This document shows, one piece after another, positions 8,975 to 22,739 of a DNA stretch of 42,529 bases. The translations under genes and the position numbers were made by a program. The notes under the pieces are model-generated. The model was not told where the DNA came from. It did not search any database and saw only the letters and a list, made by a program, of their open reading frames with translations. The number at the start of each line of letters is the position of its first letter. Within the stretch, counting starts at the first letter, position 1. This DNA is from Geitlerinema sp. PCC 9228 (GTDB lineage Bacteria; Cyanobacteriota; Cyanobacteriia; Cyanobacteriales; PCC-9228). The stretch is taken from positions 1-42,529 of the forward strand of contig NZ_LNDC01000106.1 in the NCBI RefSeq assembly GCF_001870905.1. Direction: 5' to 3'.

Positions 8975-9493
8975 ATGCTAGACGCTTTTTCTAAAGTTGT
9001 TTCCCAAGCCGACCAGCGTTGGGCTTACCTCAGCAATGAAGAAATCGAAGGCCTCTCCAACATGGTTGCGGAAAGCAACAAGCGCCTAGATGTGGTCAAT
9101 CGTTTGACCGGAAACTCTTCCACCATCGTTGCCAATGCCTATCGGGCTTTGGTAGCGGAACAACCGCAAGTATTCGGTGCTGGCGGTCAGTGCGACCACC
9201 ATCGCAACCACGCCGCCTGTATCCGCGACATGGGCTTTATTCTCCGTTACGTCACCTATTCCATGCTAGCGGGTGATTCCAGCGTCATGGACGACCGCTG
9301 CCTCAACGGGTTGCGGGAAACTTACCAAGCTTTGGGAACTCCCGGTTCCACAGTCGCTTCCGGCATTCAAAAAATGAAAGACGAAGCGATTAAGATTGCC
9401 AACGACCCCAAAGGAATTACTCGGGGAGATTGCAGCAATCTCATGTCCGAGTTGGGTGGTTACTTCGATCGCGCCGCTGCTGCTGTTTCCTAA
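8975..9493 (+). CDS. pecB: Phycoerythrocyanin beta subunit
   Basis: A 172-residue beta phycobiliprotein that pairs with PecA to form the PEC hexamers at the outer ends of phycobilisome rods on the thylakoid surface. Chromophore cysteines are at 82 ([15 protein letters not shown]) and 153 ([11 protein letters not shown]), both expected to carry phycocyanobilin. I call PecB rather than CpcB because of [29 protein letters not shown], the [11 protein letters not shown] block and [14 protein letters not shown], which follow the PecB rather than the CpcB pattern, and because pecA, pecC, pecE and pecF follow. The residue aligned with the methylated Asn72 of CpcB is Gln here. A good ribosome binding site (AAAGGAG) precedes the ATG. 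First gene of the operon, 77 bp before pecA. Confidence 0.93.
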
Positions 9494-9570: not shown

Positions 9571-10059
9571 ATGAAAACCCCAATCACAGAAGCGATCGCT
9601 ACTGCGGACACCCGTGGCTCTTACTTGAGCAACACCGAAATGCAAGCCATCTTTGGTCGTTTCAACCGTGCCAAAGCTGGTTTGGAAGCTGCCAAAGCGT
9701 TCACCGAAAACGGTCAAAAATGGGCGGAAGCCGCCGCCGAGCACGTTTACAAAAAATTCCCCTACACCACGCAGATGGAAGGTCCGCAATACGCTTCTAC
9801 CCCAGAAGGCAAATCCAAATGCGTTCGGGACATCAACAACTACTTGCGGGTCATCAGCTATTGCTGCGTCGTTGGCGGTACTGGTCCCTTGGATGAGTAC
9901 GTTATTGCCGGACTCAAAGAAGTGAATTCCGCGTTGGGTCTATCTCCCAGTTGGTACGTAGCGGCTTTGGAATTCGTGCGGGACAACCACGGATTGCAGG
10001 GTGATGTTGCCGGCGAAGCCAACATTTACCTGGACTACACCATCAACGCCCTCAGCTAA
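9571..10059 (+). CDS. pecA: Phycoerythrocyanin alpha subunit
   Basis: A 162-residue alpha phycobiliprotein. Cys84 ([13 protein letters not shown]) is the attachment site of phycoviolobilin, the chromophore that gives PEC its absorption near 570 nm. PecA-specific features are [17 protein letters not shown], the tryptophan in [23 protein letters not shown], and the adjacent cysteines 98 and 99 in ISYCCVVGG. In studied PecA proteins that dithiol pair controls the type of photochemistry the subunit shows. CpcA has different residues at these places. The length matches the family exactly. GGAG lies about ten bases before the ATG. The 171 bp gap downstream carries two hairpins that probably lower expression of the linker and lyase genes relative to the two structural subunits. 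Confidence 0.95.
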
Positions 10060-10230: not shown

Positions 10231-11055
10231 ATGAGTCCACTAGCAGCCGATTCGCTAGCAGAACAAGTGGTAGAACTGCGCGCCAACTGGAGTGAAGATG
10301 ACCTACAGTTGGTGTTTCGCAGTGCCTACCAGCAAGTGTTCGGTCGCCAAGGGGTCTACGCGAGTGCGGAATTTCGCAATGCCGAATCCCTGCTGCGCAA
10401 CGGTAGCATTACCGTACGGCAGTTCATTCGCGTTTTGGCATTGTCAGAGTTCTATCAAGATTGCTTTTTCCATAACAATTACCAAGTTCGTTTTATCGAA
10501 CTGAACTACAAGCACTTGTTAGGTAGACCGCCGTACGACCAGTCGGAAATCGCTTACCACGTTGATTTGTACGCCCAGCAAGGCTACGAAGCGGAGATGA
10601 ATTCCTACATTGACTCCCAAGAGTACAGCAATGCTTTTGGGGATTGGAGGGTTCCCTATCCCCGTGGTTTTCGTTCCCAACCCGGGCAAAAAGCTGTGGG
10701 ATATCCCCGCATGTTTGAATTGTTCCGCGGTAGTGGCAACAGCGACAACGCACAAATCGGGGGGTCTAAATCCCGCTTGCAAACGCGGGTGGCGCTGAAT
10801 ATGACCAATTCCGTACGCATGCCTTCCTCGCCAGGTAGCAAAACTGTATCGACACCGGGGCAAACGGCATTTCGCAGTGCTGACAAGCCGGATAACCGGG
10901 TGTACCGCGTGGAAGTGACCGTTGGTGGCGTTGGTATGGGTCCGCAGGTACGCCGCAGCAAGCAGTCGTACACCATTCCCTACGATCGCTTTTCCAATTT
11001 TTACCAGGAAATTCACCGCCGTGGCGGCAAAATTACCAGTATTGTTCCCGTCTGA
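10231..11055 (+). CDS. pecC: Phycoerythrocyanin-associated rod linker
   Basis: A 274-residue rod linker with the normal two-domain layout. The phycobilisome linker domain (Pfam PBS_linker_poly type) spans about residues 18-150 ([36 protein letters not shown], then [28 protein letters not shown]). A basic, low-complexity bridge follows. The C-terminal CpcD-like domain begins near residue 223 ([15 protein letters not shown]) and ends in [10 protein letters not shown]. The linker domain sits in the cavity of the PEC hexamer and the CpcD-like part contacts the neighbouring disc, so PecC fixes PEC to the phycocyanin rod. GGAG at 10217-10220 precedes the ATG. The protein is basic, as is usual for linkers. 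Confidence 0.93.
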
Positions 11056-11184: not shown

Positions 11185-11970
11185 ATGAATACCACCGTGC
11201 AGTCGGCACCGATACAGTCTTCCGAAGATGCGATCGCAGCTTTATATAATGACGACAATCAGATACGCTATTACGCCGCTTGGTGGCTGGGCAAACACAA
11301 AGTAAGTTCGGCTTGTTCCCATTTGTGCGCCGCTTTGCAAGACGAACGTTACCGCACGAATATTGGTGGATATCCCTTACGCAGACAAGCTGCCCGTGCC
11401 TTAGGGATGTTGGGCGATCGCGCTGCGGTTCCTGCCTTGATAGCGGCGTTGGAAGGGCACCAAGACCTACAGCTCACCGAAGCCGCGGTGCAAAGTTTGG
11501 CTGCTCTTGGTGACAATCGCGCCGTTCCTGCTTTGGTAGATTTATTCAACAGGACCGCCCCCCCCAAACCCGAGGAAGCGTTAATTGAAGCGCTGGCTAC
11601 CTTCCAAGTTTGGTCGCTGCGATCGCAGGTGGAACCCTATTTGGAACATACTTCCGAACGAGTACAATGCGCTGCTGCCCGCTATTTGTATTTGTGTACC
11701 CATGAGTATTGCTATTTGGAGCGCATCGTCGGCAATCTCAACCACGAGAATCCTTATTTGCGTTGGGCAGCTGCATTCGATTTGGGTGCCATTGGGCATG
11801 TAGAAGCTGCCAAAGCCATTGTCGAAGCACCAATTTCCAATAGCCTGAAATTACTGAATTTAAAAAGAATTCTTACATATGCTGTACAAACTGCCGATAG
11901 CAGTATAGATGGAAAAGAAAAATCAAAGTTTTTAATGGATTCTATCGATCGCTTGTTGCTACAACTATAG
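11185..11970 (+). CDS. pecE: Phycoviolobilin lyase-isomerase, subunit PecE
   Basis: A 261-residue HEAT-repeat (E/Z type) bilin lyase subunit. With PecF it attaches phycocyanobilin to PecA Cys84 and isomerises it to phycoviolobilin. Diagnostic stretches are [12 protein letters not shown] (residues 27-38), then [46 protein letters not shown] and the end block [17 protein letters not shown] and [12 protein letters not shown], all as in PecE. The repeats form a right-handed superhelix of about five units. The frame is open to GTG 11101, but ATG 11185 (MNTTVQ) matches the family length. The gene downstream starts only 8 bp after the stop, so translation of the extra linker is probably coupled to pecE. 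Confidence 0.93.
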
Positions 11971-11978
11971 GATGTACT

Positions 11979-13019
11979 ATGGTAGATTTTTCTATTGCTG
12001 CCGAACTGGGCATCGAACCTGTTCAAAAGCCAATTCCCACTGAACTGCGTTCCCCTGCCAGCCAAGAAGACATTAATATTGCCATCCAACAGGCTTACCG
12101 GCAAGTCTTGGGCAATGAATACGTTATGGCTAGCGATCGCTTGACCAGCGCCGAATCGTTATTGCAAGAAGGAGCTATTACCGTTCGGGAATTTGTTCGT
12201 GCGATCGCGTTATCGGAATTATATCGGGAAAAATTCTTCTATCCCAACCAGCAAACCCGATTCATCGAACTAAATTACAAACATCTTCTGGGAAGAGCGC
12301 CCTACGACCGCTCGGAAATTGCCTACCACGTTGATTTGTACAATCGCGCTGGCTACGAAGCCGAAATCAATTCTTATATAGATTCTGTTGAATATTACAA
12401 TAATTTTGGCGATCGCATTGTTCCCTACTATCGGGGCTTCGTCTCCCAGCTAGGACAAAAAACCGTAGGCTACAACCGATTGTTTCAATTGTACCAAGGC
12501 TACGCCAATAGCGATCGCGCCCAAAACCAAAGTCACAAAGCCAGCTTAACCCAGCAACTCAGCCGCAACCTGCCATCTCGCATCGACAAACGCCCGCGCC
12601 CTGGCATTTCCTACGAGAACCAAGTTAAAATCCAACAGAGATTGGAGAAACTCAAACCCACCACCACCTCTATGGCTGTTACCAAAACCGTTCCGTACGA
12701 AATCCAACGCCAGTGCCGGGAACAAGCCCAGGAAATCGAGCAACTGCAGCAAAAAATCGCCGAGTTGCGCCCAGTAGCTGCCATTGGTGAAGAAATAACC
12801 AACCGATTTGCCACCACCAGTGACAGTGCCACCACCACAGAAGTCCCACCCATTCCCACCAGCGAACCATCCATAACCGACAACCAATTTCAATGGGATT
12901 TGTATAGCAAACAACAGCAACGCGCGATCGAATATTTGCGATCGAAACTCGACCAACTGCGACGCCTATCTGTTTTGGGTGAAGCCCGTCTTAATAAATG
13001 GCGTCCGCGCAATTTTTAA
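11979..13019 (+). CDS. Atypical phycobilisome rod linker without CpcD domain, with repeat-bearing C-terminal extension
   Basis: A 346-residue protein. Residues about 27-165 form a clear phycobilisome rod-linker domain ([32 protein letters not shown], then [28 protein letters not shown]), followed by the CpcC-like tail [20 protein letters not shown]. No CpcD-like domain follows. Residues about 200-346 are instead a hydrophilic extension with helical, heptad-like units: a short unit at 218-227, a 22-residue unit at 256-277 and a matching unit at 320-341 (pattern LxxK[IL]xxLRxxxxxGExxxN[RK][FW]), joined by Thr/Pro-rich spacers. No membrane segment is seen, so it is not a CpcL-type anchor. Sitting between pecE and pecF, 8 bp after pecE, it should serve PEC rods. 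The extension could dock to another rod, the core, or a partner protein. The function of the extension is unknown. Confidence 0.85.
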
Positions 13020-13110: not shown

Positions 13111-13704
13111 ATGACTTGCACAAACATCAATACCCTACTAAAACAACTCAGCGACCCACGCCCCGACGTTGCCAAAAACGCCGTTTCTGCCTTAGTTAAT
13201 CTAGGTCCCGATAGCGTAGACCCCCTACTGCAGGCATATCAAAAAAGCCAGGACCAGAACGTGCAAGCCTACATCATTCAAGCCCTAGCTAGAATCGGCG
13301 ATACTCGCAGTCGGGACTTACTCATAGAAATCGTCGGCGTAGAAGTAGCCAACCACTGCCAGGGAAACATCCGGCGGGTGGCAGCCCGGGGGTTGGGCGT
13401 TATGGGCAGCAAAACCACAGATACCAGTATTTTATCACCAGCCATTGACAAACTAACTTGGGCACTCACCAACGCCGAAGACTGGGCATTGCGGTATGCC
13501 GCTGCCGTTGCCCTGGAAGAAATTGGTACGCCCGCCGCTGTCACTGCCTTGCAAAACGCCCAAACCAACGAATCCGACTTAGTGGTTCAAACCCGCATTC
13601 AGACAGCCTTGGAAAGTCAGAAACAACCGCTGCCAAATCCGAATTGCCAAGACCCGCAAAGCAATCTCCGGGAAGAACCCCTGCTTCAGCAAGCTCAACA
13701 CTGA
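13111..13704 (+). CDS. pecF: Phycoviolobilin lyase-isomerase, subunit PecF
   Basis: A 197-residue HEAT-repeat protein, the partner of PecE. The motif NHCQGNIRRVAARGLG (residues 81-96) contains the adjacent His82-Cys83 pair that in studied PecF proteins is needed for isomerising the bilin during attachment. Other conserved blocks are DPRPDVAKNAVSALVNLG, VQAYIIQALARIGD and EDWALRYAAAVALEEIGTPAA. The last 30 residues are a polar, Gln/Pro-rich tail with little family character. It is separated from the upstream linker by 91 bp with a terminator-like hairpin, unlike the usual close pecE-pecF arrangement. It ends 22 bp before a convergent gene, so the operon ends here. Confidence 0.92.
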   Translation: MTCTNINTLLKQLSDPRPDVAKNAVSALVNLGPDSVDPLLQAYQKSQDQNVQAYIIQALARIGDTRSRDLLIEIVGVEVANHCQGNIRRVAARGLGVMGSKTTDTSILSPAIDKLTWALTNAEDWALRYAAAVALEEIGTPAAVTALQNAQTNESDLVVQTRIQTALESQKQPLPNPNCQDPQSNLREEPLLQQAQH

Positions 13705-13726: not shown

Positions 13727-15592
13727 CTATTTTCCACTCCCATCTACCTCTAGATTCATTGTTAATGGTAAAGATGCAAAGATGACAAAAACAACAGTAC
13801 CTACCATAATGAAGAAAACGACAAATTTAAGCAGTTGTTCCATCCAGGATGTGGAATTAGTGGGGGTACCCTCTACAATGACAGCAAAGGCACCAGCAGT
13901 TGAAAAGATCTCTTGAACATTGTCTAATTCCCCTCCTGGCACTCCTGTGGCTTGGTCACTACCTTTACCTGTGAGATCGCCACCAGCGGGGGAATGTCCC
14001 CAAGCAACTACTGACCCATCCTCTTTTAGCGCTGCAAAGGCATTGCCAGTAGAAAAAATCTCTTGGACATTGTCTAGTTTTCCTCCTGGTACTCCTGTGG
14101 CAAGTAACATCTCAGACTTCTTACCCGTAAGGTCACCACCAAAAGCTGAATGTCCCCAAGCAACTACTGACCCATCCTCTTTTAGTGCTGCAAAGGCACT
14201 ACCAGTCGAAAAAATCTCTTGGACATTGTCTAGTTTTCCTCCTGGTACTCCTGTGGCAAAGGCACTTTCTTTACCTGTAAAATCGCCACCAGTGCCTGAG
14301 CCACCCCAAGCAACTACTGACCCATCCTCTTTTAGTGCTGCAAAGGCATTGCCAGTAGAAAAAATCTCTTGAACATTGTCTAATTCCCCTCCTGGCACTC
14401 CTGTAACAGCAAAGGATTCAGATTTTTTACCCGTGAGGTCGCCACCAGCGGTTGAGTTTCCCCAAGCAACTACTGACCCATCTTCTTTTAGTGCTGCGAA
14501 GGCACCACTAGTAGAAAAAATCTCTTGAACATTTTCTAGTTTCCCTCCTGTTACTCCTGTGGCTTGATCACTGTCTTTACCCGTAAGGTCGCCACCAAAG
14601 GCTGAATGTCCCCAAGCAACTACTGACCCATCCTCCCTTAGCGCCGCAAACGCTTTACCAACAGACAAAAGCTCTTGGCTCGTAGAAAAGATCTCTTGGA
14701 CATTGTCTAATTTACCCCCTGGGACCCCTGTGGCTTTGTCACTGTCTTTACCTGTGAGGTCGCCACCAAAGGCTGAATGTCCCCAAGTTACTACTGAGCC
14801 ATTCTCTTTCAGTGCTGCAAAGGCACCACCAGTAGAAAAAATCTCTTGAACATTTTCTAGTTTCCCTCCTGTTACTCCTGTGGCTTTGTCACTGTCTTTA
14901 CCCGTAAGGTCGCCACCAGCGGTTGAGCTTCCCCAAGCAACTACTGACCCATCCTCCCTTAGCGCCGCAAATGCTGTATTAGTAGAAAAGATCTCTTGAA
15001 CATTGTCTAATTCCCCTCCTGGCACTCCTGTGGATTTATCACTATCTTGACCTGTGAGATCGCCACCCAAAGCTGAATGTCCCCAAGTTACCACTGAACT
15101 ATTTTCCTTTAGCGCTGCAAAAGCTCCCCTATTAGAAAAAATCTCTTGAATAGTTTCTAGTTTTCCTTTTGGCACTCCTGTAGCTTTGTCGCTATCTTGA
15201 CCCGCGAGGTCACCACCAAAGGCTGAATGTCCCCAAGTTACTACTGAGTCATTCTTTTTTAGTGCTGCAAAGGCATTCTTAGTAGAAGAGATGTCTTGAA
15301 CATTTTCTAGTTTCTCTCCTGTGACTCCTGTGGCTTTGTGACTGTATTTACCTGTGAGATCGCCACCCAAGGCTGGATGTCCCCAAGTAGTTACATAGTT
15401 ATTAACCATGCCATCAGACTGTCCTGCTGAAGTTGGTTCTCCATCCATATTTTCAATTACTTTCTGAGTTGGAATCTCAGTGGATCCAGACTCAGTTTGA
15501 GCATTAGCGATACCAAAGAATAGGGGCAGTAGTAACCCTAAGAGTAAATATCTCAATAGGAAACGAATCCGAAGATATTTGAATCGATACAA
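13727..15592 (-). CDS. RCC1-like tandem-repeat protein, exported and membrane-anchored
   Basis: A 621-residue protein. A signal peptide is clear (basic start, hydrophobic core about residues 11-28, cleavage probably after ANA at 31). Ten tandem repeats of about 50-56 residues follow, each built on FAALKEDGSVVAWG, then a GGDLTGK block, then ATGVPGGKLDNVQEIFST. The GSVVAWG core is the hallmark of RCC1-type beta-propeller repeats. Near the C-terminus residues about 587-609 form one membrane helix, leaving a short tail. The DNA of the repeats is very similar, which indicates recent duplication; one unit carries an extra insert (SQELLSVGK). It is probably a cell-surface binding protein, but its ligand is unknown. 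The region downstream holds a recombinase remnant, so it may be part of an acquired island. Confidence 0.75.
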   Translation of the reverse strand: MYRFKYLRIRFLLRYLLLGLLLPLFFGIANAQTESGSTEIPTQKVIENMDGEPTSAGQSDGMVNNYVTTWGHPALGGDLTGKYSHKATGVTGEKLENVQDISSTKNAFAALKKNDSVVTWGHSAFGGDLAGQDSDKATGVPKGKLETIQEIFSNRGAFAALKENSSVVTWGHSALGGDLTGQDSDKSTGVPGGELDNVQEIFSTNTAFAALREDGSVVAWGSSTAGGDLTGKDSDKATGVTGGKLENVQEIFSTGGAFAALKENGSVVTWGHSAFGGDLTGKDSDKATGVPGGKLDNVQEIFSTSQELLSVGKAFAALREDGSVVAWGHSAFGGDLTGKDSDQATGVTGGKLENVQEIFSTSGAFAALKEDGSVVAWGNSTAGGDLTGKKSESFAVTGVPGGELDNVQEIFSTGNAFAALKEDGSVVAWGGSGTGGDFTGKESAFATGVPGGKLDNVQEIFSTGSAFAALKEDGSVVAWGHSAFGGDLTGKKSEMLLATGVPGGKLDNVQEIFSTGNAFAALKEDGSVVAWGHSPAGGDLTGKGSDQATGVPGGELDNVQEIFSTAGAFAVIVEGTPTNSTSWMEQLLKFVVFFIMVGTVVFVIFASLPLTMNLEVDGSGK

Positions 15593-19868: not shown

Positions 19869-22739
19869 CTATTGGGCAGCCATATTGCGGAATTGGGTAA
19901 ATTGCGGGTTAAATAGTAATTTGATATTTCCGGTGGGTCCATTACGGTGTTTGGTAATAATAATTTCTGCCAAACCGCGGTCGGGAGTATCGGGATTGTA
20001 GTATTCGTCCCGATATAACATGATAATCAAATCGGCATCTTGTTCGATGGAGTTGTGGACAACAATATTATTGGCGACGAAGTTGTGTAGGTGGGGAACG
20101 GTTAAATCGTAAACCCGTTCTTGGGGGAGGGGGGTGATGCTGGCTATGCTATCCCAAAGGATAGATTGAGTCGGTTTGGGTAGGGTGGCAAGGGATGTTT
20201 GATTGGCAAAATGGGTTGATAGGTTTTTGTCTGTAAATTTCGATACTGATGGCAGGACTGGTTCGGATTTTATCGCGATGCGATCGCTTTTTGCGAGTCG
20301 ATCCAAACGTTGCCATCCTTGCGGGGTGAAAAATTTGTGGTTGCCGGTGGCTTTAATTTTATATCCGCTTTGAGTTTGCAGGCAATAAACTGGTCGAATG
20401 CCTGTGGAAAAAGCATTGCTAACGGTGGCTTTTTCTAATTGTTGGGTTTCCCAATTGTACGCCCAAACTTGAATGTGGGATTTGCCCATTAAATCTCGAA
20501 TGGGAACGGTTTGGTTGGTATCCGCGCAAAAAATTAAGGTATCCCCCGTCAAACAGCCAGATTCGCGCAAATCGGACATCATGGGGCGTTTGTTGTTGCG
20601 GGTTTCGACACTACGACTTAACTGGGATAGGGAGATTAAGGGAACTCGTAATTCTCTGGCCAATCCTTTGAGCGATCGCGTAATTCTGGCCAATTCCTGT
20701 ACGCGATTGTCGCTGTTTCCACCTTCCATTAACTGCAAGTAATCTAACAAAATTAATCCCAATTCGCCACCCTGTTCTGCTTGCAAACGGCGACATTTGG
20801 AACGAATTTCGGTGACGGTAATGTTGGGGGTATCGTCAATAAAAATAGGCAATTCCGATAAATTCGCGATCGCATTTCCCAACGGTTCCCATTCGCTTTG
20901 GCTGATGCGACCGGCGCGCAGGCGATTGCTCTCAATTCCCGCTTCCCCAGAAAGCAAACGCTGTACCAATTGTTCTTTGGACATTTCTAAACTGAAAACC
21001 GCCACTGGCAGTTCGTGAAAAGCGGCAATATTGCGGGCAATATTCAGCGCAAAACTGGTATTGTGAACGCAAATGTCGTTGGCAACAAAATTATGGGTTT
21101 GAGGTATGGTTAAATCGTATACTCGCTGTTTGCCCAGGGGCGTAATTTCAACAATTTCATCCCAACAAATATGGCTGGCGGTTGATGCTGGGGTTGCTTC
21201 TTTTTCTAAGGTCGCGGTGGCTGTGGCTGCTTGTTTTCCTGGCAATGATTTTTGAGAAACACTGGCAGTAGGGTTGATTCGCGAATCGCCCTTATATAGA
21301 GAATTTTGATAGTGAGAAGGACCCCCGAGTTGAAATACGCCGATTTCGTTAAGAAATATTTCGACAGCATCGCGATGGTGCCCAAGGCACCGGTATTTCG
21401 GACCATCGCAAATTTCTACCTGCCAATTTCCATGGTTATTATCTGGTTTGGTTACAGCAGCAACAATGCCAAATCGCAACAAAAGATGCTGTAGCTGTCG
21501 GGCAACTTTTTGTTTTTCTGTTGGATAGACGATACAAACCGATTGATTTTCGAGGGTGACAATTTTTCCTTGGCTGGCAAACAAACGCTGGAGAAATCGA
21601 ACCACCAAAGACCGTTGTAGCGTAAAAATTATAGGGGGAATTCGCGTTGCGCCCGCGCTTCGCGTTGCGCCCCTACTGGCAATGCCTTCTGCGACCTGGT
21701 CGGCTAACTGTTCTACTTTTTCTTGGGAAATTCTTTGCTGCCCAAAAACTTCTAGTTTGCGAGGTACGGCAATTTTATCCCCTACTTGCAATTGGGACAG
21801 GGATTGCCAACCGTCCGCTGTTAGAAAAGGATGTGTTATGGTGGTTTTTAGCGATCGCCCTTGCCTGGTTTTGACCCAAAAAACGGGCTTGATGCCATCA
21901 TCTAAAAATCCACTCGGTTTGGCAAATGTAAATTGTCCATCCTTGCCGAGGGTTAACAACTCGCTGGTCGGGGTAGGTACGGGGGCACTACCCCGACGGT
22001 TTTCGGAATTTTTAACAATTTCTGCGATCGTGCGAACGCTACCATCTGCCAGTAAAATTTCCGCATCTGCTGTCAAACATTTGCCCATGGATGGCCTGCC
22101 AGCTACAATAGTTAAATCGGAACGCTGGAAACCACCGGTCATGGCATCCAAATCGTAAAAACCACAAGGCAACCCCGGTAAAGCAATATTTTCGTGGCGA
22201 ACTTCGATATCTTCAAACGTACGAACCAAGGTATCGCCAATGGCGGTCAATCCTTGTTGGGGTCGGTCTTGGGTAATATTAAAAATTTGCTGTTCGGCTT
22301 TATCTAAAATTTGCGATAAAGGGGTGGCGGTATCGTATCCCAACCGCACCACTTCGTTGCCCGATTGAATTAATTTCCGCCGGAGAAATTTATCAACAAT
22401 TAATGTGGCATACTGGTCAATATTAACCGCACTGACCGTACGTTCTACCAGTTGAACCAACTTGCTTTGACCGCCGACTTTATCTAATTTTTCCCGGTCG
22501 GAAAGCCAAGTGGTTACGCTCATTAAATCCGTAGGCATTTCTTGGTTGTAAAGAGCCAAAGCCGCCTTATAAATTTCTTTGTGAGCTTGAATGTAAAAAG
22601 CTTCCGGCATTAACAAATCGGCAATCCGCCCCATGGCTTCTGGGTCGAGCAAAATCCCCCCCAAAACTGCTTCTTCGGCTTCTATATTTTGGGGCGGCAA
22701 GCGATCGCTATAATCTTGGAAACTTAGCTCTTTAACCAT
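19869..22739 (-). CDS. dnaB: Replicative DNA helicase DnaB precursor with two inteins
   Basis: A 956-residue precursor. Extein parts are residues 1-220, 561-728 and 897-956, which splice to a 448-residue DnaB, the usual helicase length. The N-terminal domain begins RLPPQNIEAEEAVLGGILLDP. Walker A is split exactly at GRPSMGK/TSFALNIA (220/561). LILLDYLQLM is Walker B, and MSDLRESG/SIEQDADLIIMLYRDEYY is split at 728/897. Both inteins begin with Cys and end in His-Asn, and the following extein residues are Thr and Ser, so the splicing chemistry looks intact. The hexameric helicase unwinds the replication fork. Without splicing of intein 1 the ATP site cannot form, so splicing is needed for activity. 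Confidence 0.95.
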   Translation of the reverse strand: MVKELSFQDYSDRLPPQNIEAEEAVLGGILLDPEAMGRIADLLMPEAFYIQAHKEIYKAALALYNQEMPTDLMSVTTWLSDREKLDKVGGQSKLVQLVERTVSAVNIDQYATLIVDKFLRRKLIQSGNEVVRLGYDTATPLSQILDKAEQQIFNITQDRPQQGLTAIGDTLVRTFEDIEVRHENIALPGLPCGFYDLDAMTGGFQRSDLTIVAGRPSMGKCLTADAEILLADGSVRTIAEIVKNSENRRGSAPVPTPTSELLTLGKDGQFTFAKPSGFLDDGIKPVFWVKTRQGRSLKTTITHPFLTADGWQSLSQLQVGDKIAVPRKLEVFGQQRISQEKVEQLADQVAEGIASRGATRSAGATRIPPIIFTLQRSLVVRFLQRLFASQGKIVTLENQSVCIVYPTEKQKVARQLQHLLLRFGIVAAVTKPDNNHGNWQVEICDGPKYRCLGHHRDAVEIFLNEIGVFQLGGPSHYQNSLYKGDSRINPTASVSQKSLPGKQAATATATLEKEATPASTASHICWDEIVEITPLGKQRVYDLTIPQTHNFVANDICVHNTSFALNIARNIAAFHELPVAVFSLEMSKEQLVQRLLSGEAGIESNRLRAGRISQSEWEPLGNAIANLSELPIFIDDTPNITVTEIRSKCRRLQAEQGGELGLILLDYLQLMEGGNSDNRVQELARITRSLKGLARELRVPLISLSQLSRSVETRNNKRPMMSDLRESGCLTGDTLIFCADTNQTVPIRDLMGKSHIQVWAYNWETQQLEKATVSNAFSTGIRPVYCLQTQSGYKIKATGNHKFFTPQGWQRLDRLAKSDRIAIKSEPVLPSVSKFTDKNLSTHFANQTSLATLPKPTQSILWDSIASITPLPQERVYDLTVPHLHNFVANNIVVHNSIEQDADLIIMLYRDEYYNPDTPDRGLAEIIITKHRNGPTGNIKLLFNPQFTQFRNMAAQ
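20052..20555 (-). other. DnaB intein 2 (mini-intein, LRESG/SIEQDAD site)
   Basis: Precursor residues 729-896, 168 residues. Block A is CLTGDTLIFCADTNQTVPI, block B is GYKIKATGNHKFFTPQGWQRL, block F is RVYDLTVPHLHNFVANNIVV and block G ends VHN before Ser. Its length leaves no room for a homing endonuclease, so it is a natural mini-intein. The insertion site is the one used by the well-studied Synechocystis DnaB intein. Confidence 0.93.
21060..22079 (-). other. DnaB intein 1 (P-loop site) with decayed homing endonuclease
   Basis: Precursor residues 221-560, 340 residues, inserted between MGK and TSF of the Walker A loop. Block A is CLTADAEILLADGSVRTI, block B is LKTTITHPFLTADGWQSL, block F is RVYDLTIPQTHNFVANDI and block G ends VHN before Thr. 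The middle holds a LAGLIDADG-type remnant: FLQRLFASQG at 382-391 looks like the second motif (usually FLxxLFATDG), but the catalytic Asp is replaced by Gln. The first motif is missing. The segment PTEKQKVARQLQHLLLRFGIVAAV fits the endonuclease C-terminal part. Splicing should work; homing should not. Confidence 0.9.
21632..21676. repeat. Palindromic dispersed repeat, GTAGGGG family (copy 3), inside dnaB intein 1
   Basis: TAGGGGG..CGCGTTGCGCCC and CGCGTTGCGCCCCTAC form a 45 bp relative of the repeats at 7602, 17001 and 23357. Here it is translated as part of the intein (about residues 355-369, low-complexity SRGATRSAGATRIPP) and keeps the reading frame. It falls where the first endonuclease motif should be. 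Confidence 0.65.

Follow-up and report, generated by a model that had tools for sequence, protein, structure and literature searches.

The window analysed here is a stretch of 42,529 nucleotides from Geitlerinema sp. PCC 9228 (contig NZ_LNDC01000106.1). It contains a pec cluster with the gene order pecB, pecA, pecC, pecE, linker, pecF, Table 1. The linker gene is an open reading frame with an ATG start that begins 8 bp after the end of pecE and ends 91 bp before pecF. It encodes a phycobilisome linker of 346 residues whose tail ends in a signature that we call LNKW. The genome carries the phycobiliprotein genes apc, cpc and pec, and it also encodes an ordinary CpcC, a CpcG and a CpcL with a membrane helix.

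Table 1. Features of the pec cluster and of the LNKW-tailed linker; coordinates refer to the window and residues to the linker protein.
Feature	Coordinates	Strand	Basis
pecB	8975..9493	+	PF00502; pec cluster context
pecA	9571..10059	+	PF00502
pecC, ordinary rod linker	10231..11055	+	PF00427 and CpcD (PF01383)
pecE, lyase subunit	11185..11970	+	HEAT repeats, CpcE-like; 55-64% identical to pecE of other pec clusters
LNKW-tailed phycobilisome linker (346 aa)	11979..13019	+	ORF; PF00427 without CpcD
PF00427 linker domain, residues 28-152, CpcC/PecC clade	12060..12434	+	Pfam E 5e-49; tree support 98/99
Connector, residues 156-239, mostly predicted disordered	12444..12695	+	AlphaFold2 pLDDT <50 for 156-214 and 225-236
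Tail unit 1: helix, residues 240-277, degenerate LNKW end	12696..12809	+	AlphaFold2 model; unit HMM E 5.5e-12
T/S/P-rich spacer between the tail helices, residues 278-302	12810..12884	+	Sequence; low pLDDT 279-287
Tail unit 2: helix, residues 303-341	12885..13001	+	AlphaFold2 model; unit HMM E 1.9e-15
C-terminal LNKW signature (13 residues), residues 334-346	12978..13016	+	Pattern search, 386 genomes
pecF, lyase subunit	13111..13704	+	HEAT repeats, CpcF-like

Two other genes of the window deserve mention. Directly after pecF, on the opposite strand, lies a gene for a repeat protein (13727-15592, minus strand) that has some twelve VVAWGHSAFGGDLTGKDSDKATGV-like units and a hydrophobic segment at its C-terminus. 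At 19869-22739 (minus strand) a DnaB-like helicase of 956 residues seemingly contains two intein-like insertions, both of which start with CLT and end with VHN.

The preliminary description noted that the linker gene follows pecE by 8 bp and splits the usual pecE-pecF pair, and the comparison with other genomes bears this out. In each of the 31 other pec clusters having both genes, pecE and pecF are adjacent, with a gap of -4 to 436 bp, and none of the 31 has an LNKW linker between them. A conserved pecE-linker-pecF arrangement is rejected on these grounds, and the placement in the window is therefore a local rearrangement. This location, seen in one genome, is what speaks for a linker that recruits the lyase or acts as an assembly chaperone, i.e. 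whose tail would keep PecE and PecF near the nascent PEC alpha subunit. However, the gene order is unique to the window genome, most members of the family described below are found in cpe and not in pec clusters, and most pec operons have no LNKW linker. Lyase recruitment is thus rejected as the main role, and we regard it as very improbable.

The head of the protein is a normal linker domain, as first described. PF00427 matches residues 28-152 with an E-value of 5e-49 (166 bits, compared with a curated cut-off of 28.7). The CpcD-like cap had been reported absent, and indeed Pfam gives no CpcD match (PF01383) in the window linker at E-values up to 1; the neighbouring PecC has both domains. In a tree of PF00427 domains with 60 rows, the window head and two other PEC-type heads group with CpcC/PecC (support 98/99). 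Heads of the phycoerythrin (PE) type LNKW linkers are found on other branches, away from the PEC-type heads, and the CpcG/CpcL clade is far from both (100/100). With PEC-type and PE-type heads thus on different branches, the tail sits on more than one linker lineage and behaves as a module. It may have reached these separate lineages by domain shuffling or by parallel fusion, in either direction.

According to an AlphaFold2 model made with 26 sequences, the ordered head is followed by a disordered connector and two confidently predicted helices, each of 38-39 residues. Two matching 22-residue units had been proposed in this region (256-277 and 320-341), and the seven identities claimed for them are confirmed. 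The best ungapped pair starts at residues 249 and 313 and has a BLOSUM62 score of 41, a score reached in none of 1000 plain shuffles and in none of 2000 shuffles that keep the heptad positions. A unit HMM, for this comparison built from the second (last) unit of the relatives only, matches both units of the window linker, with E-values of 5.5e-12 and 1.9e-15; it also recovers the first unit from every one of the 26 linkers in the alignment. By the shuffles and the HMM matches, the repeat is a duplicated unit and not a generic coiled coil. The shorter third repeat suggested at 218-227 is not recovered, as the second-unit HMM gives no match there. The absence of a membrane helix holds as well: none is visible in the tail of the window linker, and the tails of its two PEC-type relatives peak at 0.61-0.67 on the Kyte-Doolittle scale (19 residues), compared with 2.0-3.1 for CpcL tails.

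Searches of Pfam, NCBIfam and PDB with residues 201-346 give nothing above chance, just coiled-coil noise. These databases and the open papers searched likewise describe no linker with such a tail, in agreement with the preliminary description (subscription papers lay outside the search). The most conserved part of the tail is the C-terminal LNKWRxRxF, not the heptads. Residue counts over sequences that had been chosen by the motif itself serve as description only. Independently of that choice, L338, N339, W341 and R344 are invariant in the 26 aligned linkers, although their loci were fetched partly with a GEARLNKW-like pattern. The missing annotation would fit a degenerate or neutral tail, acquired when CpcD was lost by fusion to a coiled-coil sequence and having no specific role. 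However, both the architecture and the terminus are conserved across many cyanobacterial families and on separate linker lineages, and we find such a neutral origin hardly credible.

We defined the family of LNKW-tailed linkers by a PF00427 head, two coiled-coil units and a C-terminal GExxLNKWRxRxF, all of which are present in the window linker. With the window protein alone as query, a scan of the genome contigs gave no confirmed relative. Within the order, a profile of linker tails matches 157 of 389 genomes. Across 386 genomes of the phylum, a DNA pattern encoding GExxLNKWR has 20 matches in 19 genomes, and the reversed pattern used as control has none. Each of the 20 falls at or close to the C-terminal end of its protein, which is either a PF00427 linker or has a ribbon-helix-helix-like (RHH) head and a long coiled coil. 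A unit HMM from the linkers was also run over the 6656 ORFs of the fetched regions, where it finds about 95 distinct linkers and 46 RHH proteins, 42 of the latter carrying the unit at the very end. The remaining ten matches are fragments, HMA_2 (PF19991) proteins and two unclassified ORFs. Nearly all the matches are C-terminal, and such a near-exclusive position is what would be expected of a docking signature. It is well supported that the window linker belongs to a widespread and undescribed family of LNKW-tailed linkers.

Outside the linkers and the RHH proteins we observed a few other carriers of the LNKW end. Five proteins of 282-311 aa (L129, L130, L132, L146 and L149) end in a two-unit LNKW tail, and the two tested are HMA_2 proteins. 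No antenna genes were seen in the fetched flanks of the HMA_2-type carriers, so the partner of the tail may not be specific to the antenna. A protein of 312 aa without a recognised head (L152, 8485-9423, plus strand) ends in QLNKWRFRTFSN and is a possible fourth kind of carrier.

The preliminary description regarded the linker as specific to PEC, a view that the relatives contradict. Most LNKW linkers are phycoerythrin linkers encoded directly behind cpeT-cpeR and outside pec clusters, in Nostoc, Calothrix, Symploca, Geitlerinema, Pseudanabaena and others, and phycoerythrin-containing cyanobacteria, Nostoc among them, commonly have such linkers. We find three PEC-type LNKW linkers, namely those of the window, of Coleofasciculus sp. 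LEGE 07092 (pecB-A-E-F-linker) and of UBA8803 (pecF-linker-cpcG). A pecE-type lyase gene occurs in about 38 of the 389 genomes when the longer fused or RpcG-like matches are not counted; with only three PEC-type linkers, the PEC type is therefore rare. In LEGE 07092 and UBA8803 the linker comes after pecF; of the three, only that of the window genome lies between pecE and pecF. The slot after pecF is taken by a CpcL with a membrane helix in 11 pec clusters and by an LNKW linker in the two just named. A CpcL gene also comes directly after the LNKW linker in several PE clusters.

The number of PF00427 domains varies among the LNKW linkers: 69 have one, 24 have two, one has three and two have seven. 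The two with seven domains, each about 2008 aa long and found in two genomes (L133, 4004-10033, and L134, 8317-14340, both on the minus strand), also end in an LNKW tail, and these giants may bundle many hexamers. In thylakoid-free cyanobacteria, rods are believed to be joined by multi-domain linkers such as CpcJ and CpcN, and the best PDB sequence match of the window linker domain is CpcN of Anthocerotibacter. Together with the predicted coiled-coil helices of the tail, these observations allow a linker that bundles rods, its tail helices coiling with the tails of other LNKW linkers and so joining neighbouring rods or phycobilisomes. The PE members with two, three or seven PF00427 domains would suit such a linker. 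However, conservation peaks at the C-terminal LNKWRxRxF and not in the heptads, and proteins lacking a linker domain terminate in the same signature. Bundling by tail-tail contacts is, in our judgement, unlikely, although it has to be taken seriously.

The RHH proteins provide a second set of neighbours. An RHH/coiled-coil gene is located directly downstream, on the same strand, of 17 out of 92 distinct LNKW linkers. Among 44 other RHH loci, which were drawn mostly from the better-scoring matches and not at random, 18 adjoin cpc, cpcG or cpeT-cpeR genes. RHH genes beside cpc/cpcG or cpe are found in L144, L151, L246, L255, L218, L232, L239, L241-L244 and L248-L251, and in some of the proteins of this L144-L255 set a membrane-type helix replaces the LNKW end. 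Of the proteins with a common RHH head, 44 carry LNKW at their end and 14 a membrane-type helix, which makes the two look like exchangeable anchors. The head itself has a weak ribbon-helix-helix match in Pfam. According to Foldseek, its best matches are the ribbon-helix-helix proteins CopG, PutA and ORF56, with E-values of only about 1, so that the predicted structure is suggestive of this fold. The open papers searched give no description of a ribbon-helix-helix protein linked to phycobilisomes, nor of the linker tail (subscription papers were outside the search).

These data raise the question of whether the tail packs on the neighbouring RHH/coiled-coil protein, tying the rods to its coiled-coil scaffold or to DNA. 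The adjacent genes and the terminal unit common to linker and RHH protein agree with this, and the window genome has one LNKW-ended RHH protein (C110, 484 aa). However, the flanks fetched around the C110 gene, about 9 kb per side, contain no antenna gene, and LNKW linkers occur without an RHH protein of this kind: LEGE 07092 has no RHH match, and no LNKW-ended form was found in the Nostoc PE genomes examined. An obligate pair of linker and RHH protein is thus rejected, and the RHH protein is plausible as a non-obligate partner. In addition, a common end suggests a common third partner as much as mutual binding. We hold direct packing on the RHH protein to be improbable.

The reading that we favour, at somewhat less than even confidence, is that the window linker tethers the PEC antenna, with its head holding a PEC hexamer and its tail docking to a partner outside the rod. 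By homology with other rod linkers, the PF00427 head would sit in the cavity of the phycobiliprotein hexamer. The chain would then leave through the flexible connector of about 85 residues, with no CpcD to plug the next hexamer, and end in the two coiled-coil helices, the second of which bears LNKWRxRxF as its putative docking signature. Outside the rod, this signature probably binds a specific partner, for which the thylakoid or photosystem side is the most likely location, and a soluble plug would thus do the job of the CpcL membrane helix.

The head family, the absence of CpcD, the duplicated tail, the module on several protein families and the synteny are directly supported; the docking of the tail, the partner outside the rod and the location on the membrane side are what we infer. 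An anchor is suggested because CpcL and LNKW linkers both use the slot after pecF, because CpcL follows LNKW linkers in PE clusters and because the RHH proteins swap the LNKW end for a membrane-type helix. That the signature is nearly fixed, and lies at a constant distance from the C-terminus, speaks for a specific binding site. As the tail is common to many PE linkers and to an antenna-adjacent coiled-coil protein, it is probably a reusable plug tying rods to something outside. In solved phycobilisomes, it is the C-terminal extension after PF00427 that docks the rod-core linkers (PMC8448738). Several observations count against tethering. The head is of the rod type, whereas rod bases use heads of the CpcG/CpcL type, and the window gene is outside the CpcL slot. 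The near-fixed asparagine and tryptophan suggest that a protein, rather than the lipid surface, is bound, the PE members with several PF00427 domains would equally fit a bundling linker, and the HMA_2-type carriers show no antenna genes in their fetched flanks. Of the tail functions first proposed, binding to something outside its own rod is retained as probable, and nothing supports the recruitment of the lyase.

How phycobilisomes are attached, and how they are redistributed between photosystems, is a long-standing question. The known linkers that attach rods are CpcG and CpcL. A widespread linker class with a different, common and soluble end that probably docks points to an unidentified receptor. 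We consider it possible, but rather unlikely, that a mobile LNKW docking module is a third general mooring of rods, beside the core-binding tail of CpcG and the membrane helix of CpcL, with one receptor common to PEC linkers, PE linkers and the antenna-adjacent RHH/coiled-coil proteins. If true, such a common receptor would imply an antenna-organising scaffold not known before. Through the LNKW end, a family of hypothetical coiled-coil proteins can be tested for a place in the antenna, and the frequency of the linkers in PE-containing cyanobacteria such as Nostoc allows tests in cultivable strains.

Among known linkers, the window head is closest to those of the rod linkers CpcC and PecC (PF00427 and PF01383), in whose clade it falls, and its linker domain is 68% identical to the solved rod-linker domain 3nph. 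It differs from CpcC/PecC in having the connector and two LNKW units instead of CpcD. The red-algal linkers LRC2 and LRC3 also have a PF00427 head followed by a long tail, and Foldseek aligns the window model to them over about 365 columns, the tail included, at an rmsd of about 25 Å; no sequence match of the tail was found. CpcJ, CpcN and the multi-PF00427 linkers of Gloeobacter rank near the top when the linker domain is compared with PDB sequences, and some LNKW linkers likewise have several PF00427 domains, but no LNKW tail was found in the solved chains. The rod-core linker CpcG belongs to another PF00427 clade, with no detected similarity in the tail, and the NCBIfam CpcG models, which are of the narrow "exception" type, give the window linker 79-98 bits compared with cut-offs of 420-440. 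CpcG nevertheless resembles it in combining a PF00427 head with a C-terminal docking extension, docking being predicted for the LNKW tail. CpcL has a membrane helix and a head of the CpcG/CpcL clade, whereas the LNKW linker has neither; both consist of a PF00427 head with a C-terminal extension other than CpcD, and in LEGE 07092 and UBA8803 the LNKW linker holds the slot that CpcL takes elsewhere.
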